From assembly GCF_900103485.1 (NCBI RefSeq), contig NZ_FNHW01000009.1:1-48128 (forward strand): a DNA stretch of 48,128 nucleotides, in the 5' to 3' direction. The position numbers and the translations under genes are program-made. The notes under the pieces are model-generated. The model was not told the DNA's origin, did not search any database, and worked only from the letters and a program-made list of their open reading frames with translations. This document shows, in pieces, positions 2,403 through 48,128 of the stretch; the stretch's first letter is position 1, and each line of letters begins with the position of its first letter. Source of the DNA: Fictibacillus solisalsi (GTDB lineage Bacteria; Bacillota; Bacilli; Bacillales; Fictibacillaceae).

Positions 2403-3032
2403 GTGAGAAAAACGTGGATCCCATGCCTCTTCTGTTTTCTTCTTTTAGCCCTTAGCGGCTGTGCCCAGAATGAAGCACAAGGAAGCAGTCCCCAGAACAT
2501 GGATTATGACGCCACCAAAAAAATGCTGGTGGATATTTTAAAAACAGATGATGGAAAAAAAGCGATTACCGATGTGTTGTCTGATGAAAAAATGAAGGAA
2601 CAACTTTTGCTTGATCAGGCGCTTATCAAACAAACGATTGAAAAAGAGCTCTTGTCACCAAAAGGTGAAAAGTTTTGGCAGCAAGCCTTTAAAGATCCGA
2701 AGTTTGCTGCTGCTTACGCAAAAAGCATGAAGACTGAACATGAAAAGCTGATGAAAGGCCTGATGAAAGATCCGGCGTATCAGCAGCTTATGATGAATAT
2801 CCTGAAAAGCCCGGAAATGGGCAAACAAGTATTGAACCTTGCCAATTCGCCTCAATACCGAAAAGAAGTAAAGAAAATTATGATGGAAACCTTCGATAGC
2901 CCGCTGGTACGTGCGCAATTGGCGGAGATGCTGCAAAAAGCCGCTCATGATGAAATCGACCAGTCGACCTCTAAAAAAGGATCGCAAGGCCAGCAACAGC
3001 AAGGCCAGCAACAAGGCGGCGGACAACAATAA
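2403..3032 (+). CDS. gerD: Spore germination lipoprotein GerD
   Basis: A 209-aa lipoprotein with a GTG start preceded by AAGGAG at 5 nt. The signal peptide ends in a lipobox LSGC with Cys20 as the lipidated residue. The body (about 30-185) is helical and Lys/Met/Asp-rich, the GerD core that assembles as a trimer in the spore inner membrane and clusters nutrient germinant receptors into the germinosome. The C-terminus is a low-complexity Gln/Gly tail (about 190-209), which makes the protein longer than the roughly 185-aa B. subtilis form. It is flanked by a candidate sigma-G promoter and a terminator shared with salA. Confidence 0.93.
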   Translation: MRKTWIPCLFCFLLLALSGCAQNEAQGSSPQNMDYDATKKMLVDILKTDDGKKAITDVLSDEKMKEQLLLDQALIKQTIEKELLSPKGEKFWQQAFKDPKFAAAYAKSMKTEHEKLMKGLMKDPAYQQLMMNILKSPEMGKQVLNLANSPQYRKEVKKIMMETFDSPLVRAQLAEMLQKAAHDEIDQSTSKKGSQGQQQQGQQQGGGQQ

Positions 3033-5009: not shown

Positions 5010-5453
5010 TTAATGGAGCTTCATTCTGTATCTTTTCTCGCCATTCCAATATCCTTCAAGCCACCAGTGCTCAATATACACCTCACAGCACAAATACAAG
5101 GATTCCATCATCTGCTCGGTTCCCCAGCACCAGAACTGCCAGTAATCAAACAAGCTTTCCGTCAATTCTTTTTCTGCCTGCTGGCTCCGTTTCTTGATGT
5201 CTTCCAGTGCTTCCCCATGGTAGGCGAACCGGCTGTATGCCGCGCCGAGCAAATAAGCGTCTATGGCCAGGTCAATACAGGCATCCTCAATGTCCTGCTG
5301 ATACAAGAGCGAATACTGAAAAAAAGGCTGGTACAGGGTTTGAATTTCCTTTTTAATTTTCCCTAACGAAAGATCCCTCAGCACTTTTCTTTCATACTCC
5401 GCCTTTTTCGTACGCTGTTTCTCCCTAAATGTTGTAATTACAATCGCCATCAT
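5010..5453 (-). CDS. ybaK: YbaK-like protein (DUF2521 family)
   Basis: A 147-aa soluble protein, Trp/Tyr-rich at the C-terminus (FDYWQFWCWG, YIEHWWLEGYW), helical, with no signal peptide. Sequence and position (upstream of cwlD, downstream of the rplM-rpsI region) match B. subtilis YbaK, a DUF2521 protein of unknown function. The start is either ATG 5453 or ATG 5450; GAGGATTA precedes both and 5450 has the better spacing. The AT-rich stretch upstream (TATATAG near 5490-5500) may hold a promoter but no clear -35 is visible. Confidence 0.82.
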   Translation of the reverse strand: MMAIVITTFREKQRTKKAEYERKVLRDLSLGKIKKEIQTLYQPFFQYSLLYQQDIEDACIDLAIDAYLLGAAYSRFAYHGEALEDIKKRSQQAEKELTESLFDYWQFWCWGTEQMMESLYLCCEVYIEHWWLEGYWNGEKRYRMKLH

Positions 5454-5567
5454 TAATCCTCTTCCCGCGCGAATGCGCCAATCACATATCTATATAATGG
5501 GTACACCCTTACATACATTTTTTGCAAAAGAGGCTAGCATCATCCTGCGTAAATCATGGGAATATTT

Positions 5568-5687
5568 CTAAAGCAGAAGCGGCCGCTTAGAGACGAAAAG
5601 CGTTGGAACTCTTGAAGAGCAACACGCTTTTTGTGTTGGAGAGAGAGTGAAACGATCGAGACTTTGGCCGCGCTGAAGCTGGATAAG
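5568..5687 (+). repeat. Solitary copy of a 120-nt structured repeat
   Basis: This 120-nt segment in the 338-bp ybaK/DUF421 gap aligns along its whole length with the three tandem units at 47781-48128, and has the same orientation. Shared blocks are CGTTGGAACTCTTGA, CAACACGCTTTTTGTGTTG, GAGTGAAACGA and GAAGCTGGAT. It folds as one hairpin: outer stem GCGGCC/GGCCGC, middle ACTCTT/GAGAGT (one pair weak), apical CAACAC/GTGTTG. The AGAGAC/GACTTT stem carries one mismatch and one G-U, so this copy is somewhat decayed. No RBS or start supports translation. Confidence 0.8.
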
Positions 5688-5791: not shown

Positions 5792-6502
5792 TTATTCTTT
5801 ATCAATGGGCGCCTTCAGTCGGTCGGCGTAGGAATCAAAATATAGATTGCCGTTTGTTCCCTGTACGGCATAATACACATCTTCAAGAGCCAGGCCTCTG
5901 TTTTTGAGCTCCTGCAGCAGCCAGGCTTCGGAAAGTTGGTTCTCCTTCAGATTATCGCCAAGGATTTCTTTTTCCATGATGAGTTCGACCGGAAACTGTG
6001 AGTCTTTCTGGAACGCCAGATTTAAATCCTGGCGGGTAAGCGAGCGGAATGGCGGCTTTTTTTGAATGGAGATTCCGCCGTTTGTTTCAAGAATGGCATA
6101 TTGCACTTCATACATATCAAAGATTCCCTTTTCCCTGAGGAGCTGGTTTAAGTTATCAATTGTGAATTTCGCTTTTCCCATGTTCTTTTCCAAAATGTGA
6201 CCGTCTTCAACCAGCACGGTGGGTTCTCCTGATATCCAGCGGCGAGCTTTTCTGCTTTTGACGGTGAAGACCAGGACCAGTATGGAGGTACCAAAAAAGG
6301 TCAGCATCGCAAAAACGGCGTGCCAGGTTTTGATATTCAGGTTAAAGGCAAGGTTCGCCGTAATGGATCCAAGCGTGGCAGCCGCAATAAAATGGTTCAG
6401 CGTTAAATAGGACATCGTCTGTTTGCCGAGAAGACGCGCAATTCCGATAAACAATGTAAACGCCAGTAATGTCCGCCAAAAGACTTCCATGATCTCAGAC
6501 AT
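5792..6502 (-). CDS. DUF421 (YetF/YrbG-type) membrane protein
   Basis: A 236-aa protein starting at ATG 6502, 6 nt after AGGAGG. The open frame extends upstream but lacks a ribosome site. Three hydrophobic helices (about 10-25, 37-55, 62-81) precede a cytoplasmic domain (about 85-226). That domain contains a recognisable internal duplication: GEPTVLVEDGHIL...VQYAILETNGGISI and PVELIMEKEIL...VYYAVQGTNGNLYF. This is the DUF421/YetF architecture; several B. subtilis paralogues are made in sporulating cells, but the biochemical role is unknown. B. subtilis has no such gene between rpsI and ybaK, so it is an insertion relative to that order. No clear promoter is visible in the 122 bp before it. 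Confidence 0.88.
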   Translation of the reverse strand: MSEIMEVFWRTLLAFTLFIGIARLLGKQTMSYLTLNHFIAAATLGSITANLAFNLNIKTWHAVFAMLTFFGTSILVLVFTVKSRKARRWISGEPTVLVEDGHILEKNMGKAKFTIDNLNQLLREKGIFDMYEVQYAILETNGGISIQKKPPFRSLTRQDLNLAFQKDSQFPVELIMEKEILGDNLKENQLSEAWLLQELKNRGLALEDVYYAVQGTNGNLYFDSYADRLKAPIDKE

Positions 6503-6573
6503 CCTGTTCCTCCTGTTGGAAAATGGTGTTATGCCTATTGTTTGCGAATCGAGCCGGGAACATGAGCGAAATA

Positions 6574-6608
6574 TAAAAAAGACCCCCAAGCAAAATGCCT
6601 GAGAGCCT
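6574..6608 (-). terminator. rplM-rpsI operon terminator
   Basis: Minus strand: AGGCTCTCAGGC/GCTTGGGGGTCT pair over 12 positions using several G-U pairs, then TTTTTTAT. On the plus strand those wobbles become A-C mismatches, so the terminator works only in the leftward direction. Confidence 0.75.
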
Positions 6609-45712: not shown

Positions 45713-47113
45713 TTACTGCCTCTTCCAGCGAACACCCTGCGGCGTATCTTCCAATACGATATTCATGTCGCGCAGCTGGTCTCGAATTTCATCCGCCCGG
45801 GCGAAATTGCGTTCTTTCCTGGCTGTGTTCCGCTCTTCAATAAGCGCCTCAATGTCTTCATCCAGCAGTTCTTTCTCCTCTGTCAGTGTCAAGCCAAGCA
45901 CTCCGGCCAGCTCTTCGAAAAGGTTGATAAATTTGGCAAGCACCGCGGTTGAAGTATTTTCCGACTGCAGGTAGACATTGGCCTCTTTTGCCATATCAAA
46001 CAGGACGGCAATGGCGTTTGCGGTATTGAAGTCATCATCCATTTCAGTAATGAAGCTTTGTTTGAATTGCTCTATTTTTTCGTTCCATTGGTCCGCATCA
46101 GAAGCGAGATCCGCACTGACTTCCAGACGGTGCTTCAAATTTCCGTAAGCGGTACGAATCCTGTTCAGGCTGACTTCCGCGCTTTGAAGCAATTCATTAC
46201 TGAAGTTGATCGGGTTGCGGTAATGAACGGCCATCATGAAAAAGCGGATCACCTGCGGGTCGAACTCTTTAATCATATCGTGAACAAGCACAAAGTTCCC
46301 GAGTGATTTGGACATCTTTTCGTTATTGATATTAATATACCCGTTATGCATCCAATATTTTGCCATCGGCGCTTCGTTTAATGCTTCTGACTGGGCGATT
46401 TCATTCTCGTGGTGAGGAAACGTTAAATCCTGGCCTCCTCCATGAATGTCAATGGAATCCCCAAGGTACTTTTTCGCCATGGCCGAGCACTCGATGTGCC
46501 AGCCCGGACGACCTTTCCCCCATGGGCTCTCCCAGGAGATTTCTCCCTCTTTGGCTGATTTCCACAGTGCAAAGTCTAGAGGATCCTTCTTGATGTCGCC
46601 TACTTCAATCCGGGCCCCGGAACGAAGATCATCAATCGATTGATGGGAAAGCTTACCGTATCCGTCAAATGCTCTTGTTTTAAAATACACATCGCCTTTT
46701 GCTTCATATGCATAACCCTTTTCAACCAACTTGCTGATAAAATCAATAATTTCCGGCATGGTCTCGGTTACTCTCGGATGATAGTCTGCTTCCTGGACAC
46801 CTAACGCGCAAACATCCTCATGATACGAATTGATAAAACGTTCAGCTACTGTGGGAACATCGGTGCCGAGCTCTTTGGCCGCCCTGATGAGTTTATCGTC
46901 CACATCAGTAAAATTGGAAATAAAATTCACATCATAGCCACGGTATTCAAGGTAGCGTCTTACCGTATCAAATACGATGGCCGGACGGGCATTTCCGATA
47001 TGAATGTAGTTGTAAACGGTAGGTCCGCATACATACATTTTTACTTTCCCTTCCTCAAGGGGTTTAAATACCTCTTTTTGACGGGTTAACGTATTATAAA
47101 TCACTAAGCTCAT
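45713..47113 (-). CDS. cysS: Cysteinyl-tRNA synthetase
   Basis: 466 aa class I synthetase: zinc ligand C29 in [13 protein letters not shown] (38-41), further zinc residues in [10 protein letters not shown] and [11 protein letters not shown], and KMSKS in [11 protein letters not shown]. It overlaps cysE by 4 bp (ATGA). The cysE-cysS pair links cysteine synthesis with its charging. Confidence 0.97.
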
Positions 47114-47760
47114 CGCACTTCACTTCCCTTTCGTAAACGTTCCATATCTGCCTGCAATCTTTCAATTTCCGCCTGCAGTTCGCGGAATTGGGCAGCCACC
47201 GGATCCGGAAGATTGCAGTGATCCAGCTCCTGGCCGATTTTAACGCCGTCCTGTACAACGACCCTACCCGGAATCCCGACTACCGTCGAGTTCGGCGGCA
47301 CATCCCGAAGCACAACCGAACCCGCCCCTATCTTAGAATGTTTCCCAATTGTGATGGATCCCAATACTTTGGCGCCCGAAGCAACCAACGCATGGTCCTC
47401 AAGTGTTGGATGCCGTTTTCCTTTTTCCTTACCGGTACCACCAAGTGTTACACCCTGATACAAGGTAACATTATTCCCGATGATACACGTTTCTCCGATG
47501 ACGACTCCCATTCCATGATCTATAAACAACCGGCGCCCGATCTGTGCACCCGGATGAATTTCAATTCCTGTAAAAAAGCGGCTGATCTGTGAAACCAGAC
47601 GGGCGAGAAACAAGAAATTGTGTCTGAACAACTTGTGAGCCACCCGGTGAGCCCAGACCGCATGCACGCCTGAATACGTTAAAATGACCTCCAGCTTGCT
47701 GCGTGCTGCCGGATCATTATCAAAAACTGCCTGTATATCCTCCCTCATGCGCTTCCACAT
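47110..47760 (-). CDS. cysE: Serine O-acetyltransferase
   Basis: 216 aa. A helical N-terminal domain, then left-handed beta-helix hexapeptide repeats with the active-site [20 protein letters not shown] and [16 protein letters not shown] (catalytic Asp/His and the CoA-binding Lys region). The C-terminal tail is a charged helix ([20 protein letters not shown]), longer than a minimal SAT. It makes O-acetylserine from serine and acetyl-CoA. AAGGGGGG precedes ATG. No T-box motif is visible in the 368 bp upstream. Confidence 0.96.
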
Positions 47761-47780
47761 GGAAATCCCCCCTTAGTTAA

Positions 47781-48128
47781 GAAAAGCTGAAACGGCCGTT
47801 AAAAAGCGGCAGGCGTTGGAACTCTTGAACGGCAACACGTTCTTTGTGTTGTGGTGAAAGAGTGAAACGACCAAGCTTTTGGCGGTTGAAGCTGGATCAA
47901 GAAAAGCTGAAGCAGGCGTTTAGAGTCGATAGGCGATGGAGCGGTGACACAGCAACACGCTTTTTGTGTTGAAGTGTCAGCGTGAATCGACAGAGACTCT
48001 GCCTGTTGAAGCTGGATCGAGAAAAGCTGAAGTAACCGTTTAGAGACGAAAAACATTGGAACTCTTGAACGGCAACACGCTCTTTGTGTTGTAGTGAAAG
48101 AGTGAAATGGTCGAGTCTCTGGTCACTG
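47781..48128 (+). repeat. Tandem array of 120-nt structured repeats (3 units, last one cut)
   Basis: Units at 47781-47900, 47901-48020 and 48021-48128 (12 nt missing at the window edge) repeat at exactly 120 nt. Each begins GAAAAGCTGAA and the complete ones end GAAGCTGGATC(A/G)A. Each folds as a hairpin: arms 13-17/101-105 and 22-27/95-100, middle stem around 41-50/74-83, invariant CAACAC/GTGTTG at 53-58/66-71. Arm sequences differ between units but pairing is kept. This is all that lies between cysE and the next gene beyond the edge; no promoter, T-box or start codon with RBS was found. Confidence 0.85.

Follow-up and report, generated by a model that had tools for sequence, protein, structure and literature searches.

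The repeat units in the window

What kind of element is repeated at the right end of this Fictibacillus contig, and how does it spread? The window, by which we mean the whole stretch of 48,128 nt analysed here, ends with three head-to-tail units at an exact period of 120 nt, and unit 3 is cut because the window is the whole contig (C12) and the contig end is reached there (Table 1). The genome to which it belongs (G000) has 4.80 Mb in 14 contigs. A sequence-only reading of the window had described the units as one long hairpin with co-varying arms. The period that it gave is borne out by the coordinates 47779-48128, and so are the arms, which, counted from position 47781, read AAAAGC/GCTTTT, AGAGTC/GACTCT and AGAGAC/GTCTCT at 22-27/95-100 in units 1, 2 and 3, and ACTCTT/AAGAGT, GCGGTG/CAGCGT and ACTCTT/AAGAGT at 41-46/78-83. 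The tip CAACAC/GTGTTG, which had been called invariant, is indeed the same in all three window units, but is variable in the wider family. A fourth copy had also been mentioned, and it was found as a single unit between two minus-strand ORFs (5010-5453 and 5792-6589).

Table 1. Hairpin repeat units, helices of unit 1 and the neighbouring ORF in the window
Feature	Coordinates	Strand	Evidence
Unit 1 of hairpin repeat	47779..47898	+	R1 130.2 bits, E 2.7e-34, z -5.4; unit is in R1's alignment
Unit 2 of hairpin repeat	47899..48018	+	R1 126.9 bits, z -6.9; unit is in R1's alignment
Unit 3, incomplete at contig end	48019..48128	+	R1 110.1 bits, model 1-110
Fourth copy, single unit	5566..5685	+	R1 106.9 bits; copy is in R1's alignment
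Basal helix, unit 1	5' arm 47786..47788, 3' arm 47890-47892	+	model structure
Lower helix, unit 1	5' arm 47791..47797, 3' arm 47881-47887	+	7/7 pairs with two-sided changes in alignment A2
Helix 22-27/95-100, unit 1	5' arm 47802..47807, 3' arm 47875-47880	+	98.1% of cells paired, two-sided changes in 6/6 pairs
Middle helix, unit 1	5' arm 47814..47817, 3' arm 47866-47869	+	98.0% of cells paired
Helix 41-46/78-83, unit 1	5' arm 47821..47826, 3' arm 47858-47863	+	92.8% of cells paired
Tip helix and terminal loop CAACACG-TTCTT-TGTGTTG, unit 1	47833..47851	+	96.6% of cells paired; variable outside the window
ORF, presumably cysE (serine acetyltransferase), named by recognition of its sequence	47110..47760	-	ORF; start faces the repeat array, 18 nt from unit 1

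The + strand of units 1, 2 and 3 folds at -48.5, -53.6 and -34.6 kcal/mol, with z = -5.4, -6.9 and -3.3 against dinucleotide shuffles, of which 0, 0 and 1 of 200 fold as well. The minus strand of the same units folds too, less well (-32.9, -39.5 and -29.1). An 85-aa minus-strand ORF in the mechanical ORF list raised the possibility that the repeats code for protein, which we reject, for covariation accounts better for the sequence.

The window begins with 16S rRNA (1-191) and ends with the repeat (48019-48128), thus both ends are probably assembly breaks caused by repeats. At 2984-3013 there is in addition a perfect 15-bp tandem duplication, GCAAGGCCAGCAACA.

Structure and covariation

A covariance model (R1) was built from 46 Fictibacillus units (alignment A1), and the best 150 of 159 R1 matches, from Fictibacillus and other genera, were aligned as A2, with 141 distinct sequences. 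The consensus structure derives from A1, whose units recur in the later alignments, so that pair counts lean towards it; with this in mind, standard pairs occupy 93.6% of pair cells in A2 against 71.2% in shuffles, and two-sided changes occur in 27 of 33 pairs. The covariation score of A2 is 0.629 against 0.201 when shuffled, none of 500 shuffles reaches it, and it amounts to 0.07-0.13 when the partner is slid by 1-3 columns. Because A2 is fitted to the model, a second test was run with a tree-based null, in which a custom script replayed substitutions on a tree of 252 units in 20 replicates. By this test, a statistical check on a larger alignment that the sequence-only reading had proposed, 22 of the 33 model pairs covary significantly (E<0.05) and 11 do not. 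Three column pairs that prolong helix 41-46/78-83 (54-82, 52-84 and 53-83) covary above the 99.99% quantile of the null, and likewise two that lie outside any helix (59-74 and 10-59). The basal helix has no covariation support; two of its pairs are nearly invariant and the third is unpaired in 101 of 141 sequences.

Outside the pairs that are often G-U, G-U occurs 255 times and A-C 75 times, therefore one strand is the one that folds, namely the + strand in the window. This strand makes a rod of about 120 nt with conserved purine-rich internal loops, in which GA steps are set against GA steps (GAA/TGA, CGA/CGAG, GGA/GAA); the loops may be read as tandem sheared G-A pairs. Both the excess of G-U on one strand and the conserved loops speak for a structured cis-acting RNA, a hairpin transcribed after stop codons or within operons that would protect or process the mRNA. 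We regard this explanation as rather unlikely on the evidence of placement and of shared sites given below.

Some Fictibacillus copies are branched: their 3' side bears one or two extra hairpins and they are 142-181 nt long, as seen in 5 of the 7 copies that the script could excise. By eye, the stems of the branched copies L045, L056, L059, L064 and L125 differ between copies with pairing kept.

Copy number and taxonomic range

A search of this genome and its relatives with a covariance model, also proposed by the sequence-only reading, gives 27 R1 matches in G000 and 7-52 in each of the seven Fictibacillus genomes, all of which have them. On the whole, matches are present in 33 of 34 genomes of the family (E≤1e-3) and in 142 of 199 genomes of the order, that is, in 73 of 98 genera (E≤1e-6), with 57 genomes of the order having none at the latter threshold. 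In a sample of 299 genomes from the phylum, the three with matches all belong to the same order, and the other 296, one of them of the same order, have none (E≤1e-6). R1 is thus specific, and the family of hairpin repeats is order-wide and not seen outside the order in this sample. Matches per genome vary widely, from one to more than 100, and are numerous in G145 (103), which belongs to another family of the order, in G032 (98) and in G134 (77). Arrays have 1 to 7 units, and 86 of 155 are single. At the level of plain sequence the range is narrower: when 84,980 named genomes were scanned with a DNA pattern made from the tip and the 3' arm, 24 stretches matched, all in Fictibacillus, and BLAST on a sample of 40 genomes found copies in the 7 Fictibacillus genomes and in none of the other 33.

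The repeat had also been called possibly undescribed, and this stands. None of the Rfam 15 covariance models reaches its gathering threshold on the window units, the best being mir-567 with 17.8 of 90 bits, and the one named family that joins such units, Bacillaceae-1 (RF01690), does so only in other genomes. A description of the repeat family was not found in the open-licence PMC text that was searched, and an earlier description elsewhere is possible. The excerpts consulted of PMC2267715, PMC1590033, PMC6542083, PMC3446304, PMC8919778 and PMC2864571 hold no account of it. As to the earlier proposal of a mobile or amplified structured element, amplification, structure on one strand and covariation are all observed, and mobility is what we infer.

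In G134 we also note that the DnaA ATPase family has 34 matches, many of equal score; these are probably IstB-like helpers of a multicopy element, presumably of IS21 type.

Orientation relative to replication

The direction of the repeat relative to the replication fork was analysed in six genomes in which dnaA was located. The best matches were taken, 69 of 103 for G145 and a smaller proportion for the other genomes, and with approximate genome lengths for G049 and G133 the folding strand runs against the fork in 124 of 151 arrays (p 5e-16); leaving these two genomes out, 118 arrays are against the fork and 25 are not. Among the larger samples, G145 has the strongest bias (60 of 68 arrays); the bias is not significant alone in G032 (13 of 19), G049 (3 of 5) and G133 (3 of 3). 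Gene direction was then considered for the 62 of 82 arrays that had two called neighbours. Arrays antisense to co-directional genes are against the fork in 28 cases versus 0, those sense to co-directional genes in 5 versus 7, and those that lie in convergent or divergent gaps in 20 of 22, which shows that gene direction does not explain the bias. The orientation means that the folding strand is mostly the nascent lagging strand, with its complement in the lagging-strand template.

The reading that we favour, and that we hold to be about evenly poised between right and wrong, is that of a non-autonomous interspersed mobile hairpin repeat which has spread through the order and inserts in connection with replication forks and terminators. 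How copies insert is something we infer from the structure, range, orientation and placement that are observed. Insertion would take place at replication forks, beside terminator hairpins that have folded where the lagging-strand template is exposed, and the hairpin strand would be synthesized as nascent lagging strand; slippage or recombination might afterwards lengthen and shorten the arrays.

The same bias could arise passively, if insertions occur in both orientations and deletion removes the copies that have their strongly folding strand in the lagging-strand template. Instability of hairpins in that template is a known phenomenon, and the + strand of the repeat does fold better than its complement. 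We give this explanation a real, though lesser, chance. It leaves the 5' edge, the adjacency to terminators and the spread unexplained, and it is compatible with the favoured reading of a mobile repeat.

Placement relative to genes

The 155 arrays in the fetched loci reduce to 97 distinct loci, of which 12 were dropped for want of usable flanks and 85 have usable neighbours, with genes called by an ORF-length rule. In co-directional gaps the repeat is antisense to both genes at 43 loci and sense at 13. With 43 of 56 co-directional loci antisense to both genes, the folding strand should seldom be transcribed by read-through, which weighs against a cis-acting RNA, as does the wide variation of the neighbouring genes. 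For such an RNA counts the position of the sense copies: where the 5' neighbour is sense, the repeat starts within -12 to +6 nt of its stop codon in 26 of 32 loci. The copies antisense to both genes are evenly spread over the gap (KS p 0.73).

The 5' edge itself follows a short motif. TAA or TAG stands most often about four bases ahead of the conserved AAAAGC of the 5' end, and in a count that left out five partial-hit loci, TAR occurs within 10 nt before AAAAGC at 35 of 49 sites with an antisense 5' neighbour and at 29 of 32 with a sense one, compared with 14 of 49 and 8 of 32 respectively in the next 10 nt outward. The motif alone was considered as the cause of the stop-codon adjacency and is not accepted as such; TAR helps, but only 6 of 32 sense copies lie away from the stop, probably because the gap between stop and terminator is short. 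Insertion directly before a terminator would likewise put the 5' edge near the stop of a sense neighbour, this gap being short.

One copy (L090:259-377) lies inside an rRNA operon, between 23S and 5S, and its start is three nucleotides beyond the 23S match.

Terminators and tails

In G145 many units carry a conserved tail of 37-55 nt, of one of two types (about 37 or about 55 nt), which is often followed by a host A-tract, a GC hairpin and a T-tract, like a terminator. Copies were sorted by tail with a crude rule that left 10 of 45 unsorted; under it, the hairpin starts 56-64 nt past the unit in 11 of 15 copies with the long (alpha) tail, and 37-44 nt past it in 7 of 20 with the short (beta/gamma) tail, with no hairpin found by the scan in 9 of these 20. 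Over all, 65 of 145 loci have a strong hairpin on the 3' side versus 8 of 145 on the 5' side, an excess due in part to 3' sides facing gene ends more often. In Fictibacillus the adjacency is loose (13 of 40 loci, at 2-89 nt).

Together, the replication orientation and the frequent adjacency to terminators open to test the way in which palindromic repeats spread when they have no protein of their own, and the possibility that terminators serve as landing sites at replication forks.

The G145 tails have two further features. Several copies with alpha tails (for example L229, L233, L234 and L257) contain TTATCCACA, which we take to be the DnaA-box consensus. In beta tails (for example L196), unit end and tail read TGGACA or TAGACA, 18 nt, TATACT, which by eye is promoter-like and would point away from the hairpin.

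Probable turnover at shared sites

Several insertion sites are common to more than one Fictibacillus species, among them those at cysE, atpA-atpG and pcrB (the last three gene names, like cysE, being presumptive and given by recognition). A unit is present at the site corresponding to cysE in six of the seven Fictibacillus genomes, and G003 has none (L202), which, as the other six have it, probably reflects a loss. This was the one unit-free site examined; it is loss-like, and no insertion was seen directly. Four Fictibacillus genomes share the position of a copy in the atpA-atpG gap, a constancy that speaks for a cis-acting RNA. When the species are distant, a unit often resembles units of other sites more than its counterpart at the shared site.

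For a closer comparison we used 33 pairs of units, each at the same insertion site in two genomes, with 85 to 99.5% identity. Changes in stems comprise 36 that break a pair, 21 one-sided ones that leave it paired and 15 two-sided ones, all 15 in unit pairs of at most 93.2% identity. As 36 of the 57 one-sided changes break pairs, selection for structure is not established at each fixed copy, and this too argues against a cis-acting RNA. About 4% of paired bases have changed versus 7.3% of unpaired ones; some constraint is therefore possible, and here the cis-acting RNA gains a point. The sequence-only reading had seen selection for structure in the compensatory changes; covariation across the family supports it, whereas the changes at shared sites do not extend it to single copies, and selection for pairing in place was discarded as unsupported by their kind. 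Our interpretation is that units turn over within old sites and slowly decay, rather than that every copy is under strict selection. Under the favoured reading of a mobile repeat, structure would be selected in the copies that spread and would decay slowly afterwards.

Possible carriers

Bacterial-C introns are reported to insert right after Rho-independent terminators with a preference for the lagging-strand template (PMC8919778, in the portion consulted). The minus strand of the repeat resembles them on both counts, with terminator adjacency in G145 only (loose in Fictibacillus) and lagging-strand template orientation in the 124 of 151 arrays, so that the repeat might be a retroelement moved by a reverse transcriptase of group IIC intron type, with the same target and the same strand preference. 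Group II reverse transcriptase matches are present in 92 of 199 genomes of the order (E≤1e-20), but at this threshold there is none in G000, G032, G145 and G116, all rich in copies; no Rfam group II RNA matches the window or 18 loci; the minus strand is not the one with the conserved fold; and the units have only about 120 nt, or up to 181 nt when branched. We consider this explanation improbable.

Slightly less probable still is that an HUH (Y1) transposase of the RAYT/IS200 kind uses the repeat as a REP-like substrate. In favour one may cite the short motif ahead of the 5' edge, and also Y1_Tnp (PF01797), which 156 of the 199 genomes of the order have, often with a single weak match. Y1_Tnp is missing from G000, G077, G100, G114 and G116 (E≤1e-5 for G000 and G116), though all five have R1 matches, and the orientation of the repeat is opposite to that of IS608, whose active strand enters the lagging template. 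The absence of both enzymes from copy-rich genomes shows that neither is needed for keeping copies. As a strict requirement both are therefore rejected, and they may be past carriers. No recombinase, transposase or reverse transcriptase could be tied to the hairpin repeat.

Target-site duplications were looked for and no clear excess appeared: exact repeats of at least 8 nt at both edges occur in 8 of 143 arrays versus about 5 expected from shuffled pairings, the two longest are element sequence, and the TAGTT that flanks the cysE copy of G004 on either side is an isolated case. An origin from phages, plasmids or viruses found no matches at the sensitivity used, which covers close relatives of the queries: blastn gave none on plasmids for the G145 copy or the window units and none on phages for the G145 copy, and viral contigs have no match to the exact pattern. 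Since blastn fails to reach other genera of the family, the absences from plasmids and phages are weak.

Comparable repeats and a partner module

Like the hairpin repeat, REP/RAYT, BOX and ERIC elements are interspersed intergenic hairpins without coding capacity. We know of no order-wide range or replication orientation for BOX or ERIC. REPs differ in being palindromes of 20-40 bp (PMC3733652, as far as the part consulted goes), compared with a unit of 120 nt, and in their cognate Y1 transposase, which is absent from G000 and several copy-rich genomes.

By description, the nearest kind is that of the bcr repeats of the Bacillus cereus group. The sections consulted of two papers (PMC6542083, PMC3446304) give 18 families of 100-400 bp, mostly chromosomal, with up to 130 copies of bcr1, and locate bcr1-3 frequently in UTRs and in gaps within operons; the first bcr element described is reported to be restricted to the B. 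cereus group, with a mobility tied to a TTTAT motif. The MITE-like bcr1-bcr3 are intergenic repeats, as is the hairpin repeat. They are set apart from it by description, not by sequence, since the bcr repeats are restricted to the B. cereus group in the text consulted whereas the hairpin repeat is order-wide (73 of 98 genera), and since bcr1 is described with plasmid copies whereas two queries of the hairpin repeat have no plasmid match. Many B. cereus repeat copies are reported as transcribed, 84 of 165 and 62 of 155 in two strains (PMC3446304, same section), which may be counted for the explanation by a cis-acting RNA.

Bacillaceae-1 is another dispersed structured motif of the same order, present in 101 of 199 genomes. 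It differs in having 67 nt and two hairpins, against one rod of about 120 nt, and its hairpins have RUCCU-type loops. No match to it is present in the window or in G000. In G032 it is joined end to end and on the same strand to units in 5 of 11 loci (L106, L264, L265, L266 and L271), at L265 exactly between two units. An R1 unit lies within 150 nt in 5 of 26 Bacillaceae-1 loci, and in L104 the two are near each other on opposite strands; Bacillaceae-1 is therefore a separate partner module and not the same family. Rfam types it as an sRNA gene; in the present data it looks like a dispersed module to which repeat units can be joined.

These joints bear on a broader view, in which the repeat would be a mobile element of a class apart, with no known transposase or reverse transcriptase: a DNA hairpin able to copy itself by template switching at forks and to accrete hairpin modules. 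Copying would occur when lagging-strand synthesis meets a folded terminator and switches template onto another copy of the hairpin, and the accreted modules would be the extra arms in Fictibacillus and Bacillaceae-1 elsewhere. We put this forward as speculative and think it unlikely; if true, several orphan structured-RNA families of these bacteria would be parts of one modular repeat system.

A possible relative is Bhal-1 of Bacillus halodurans, a family of 74-bp stem-loop repeats with 36 copies in its table (PMC2267715, in the part consulted).

Bacillaceae-1 is found between or beside units at L265:650-715 and at L271:443-508 and 795-860, and at L305:1480-1700 it is apparently inserted inside a unit-like hairpin, as nested hairpin modules.
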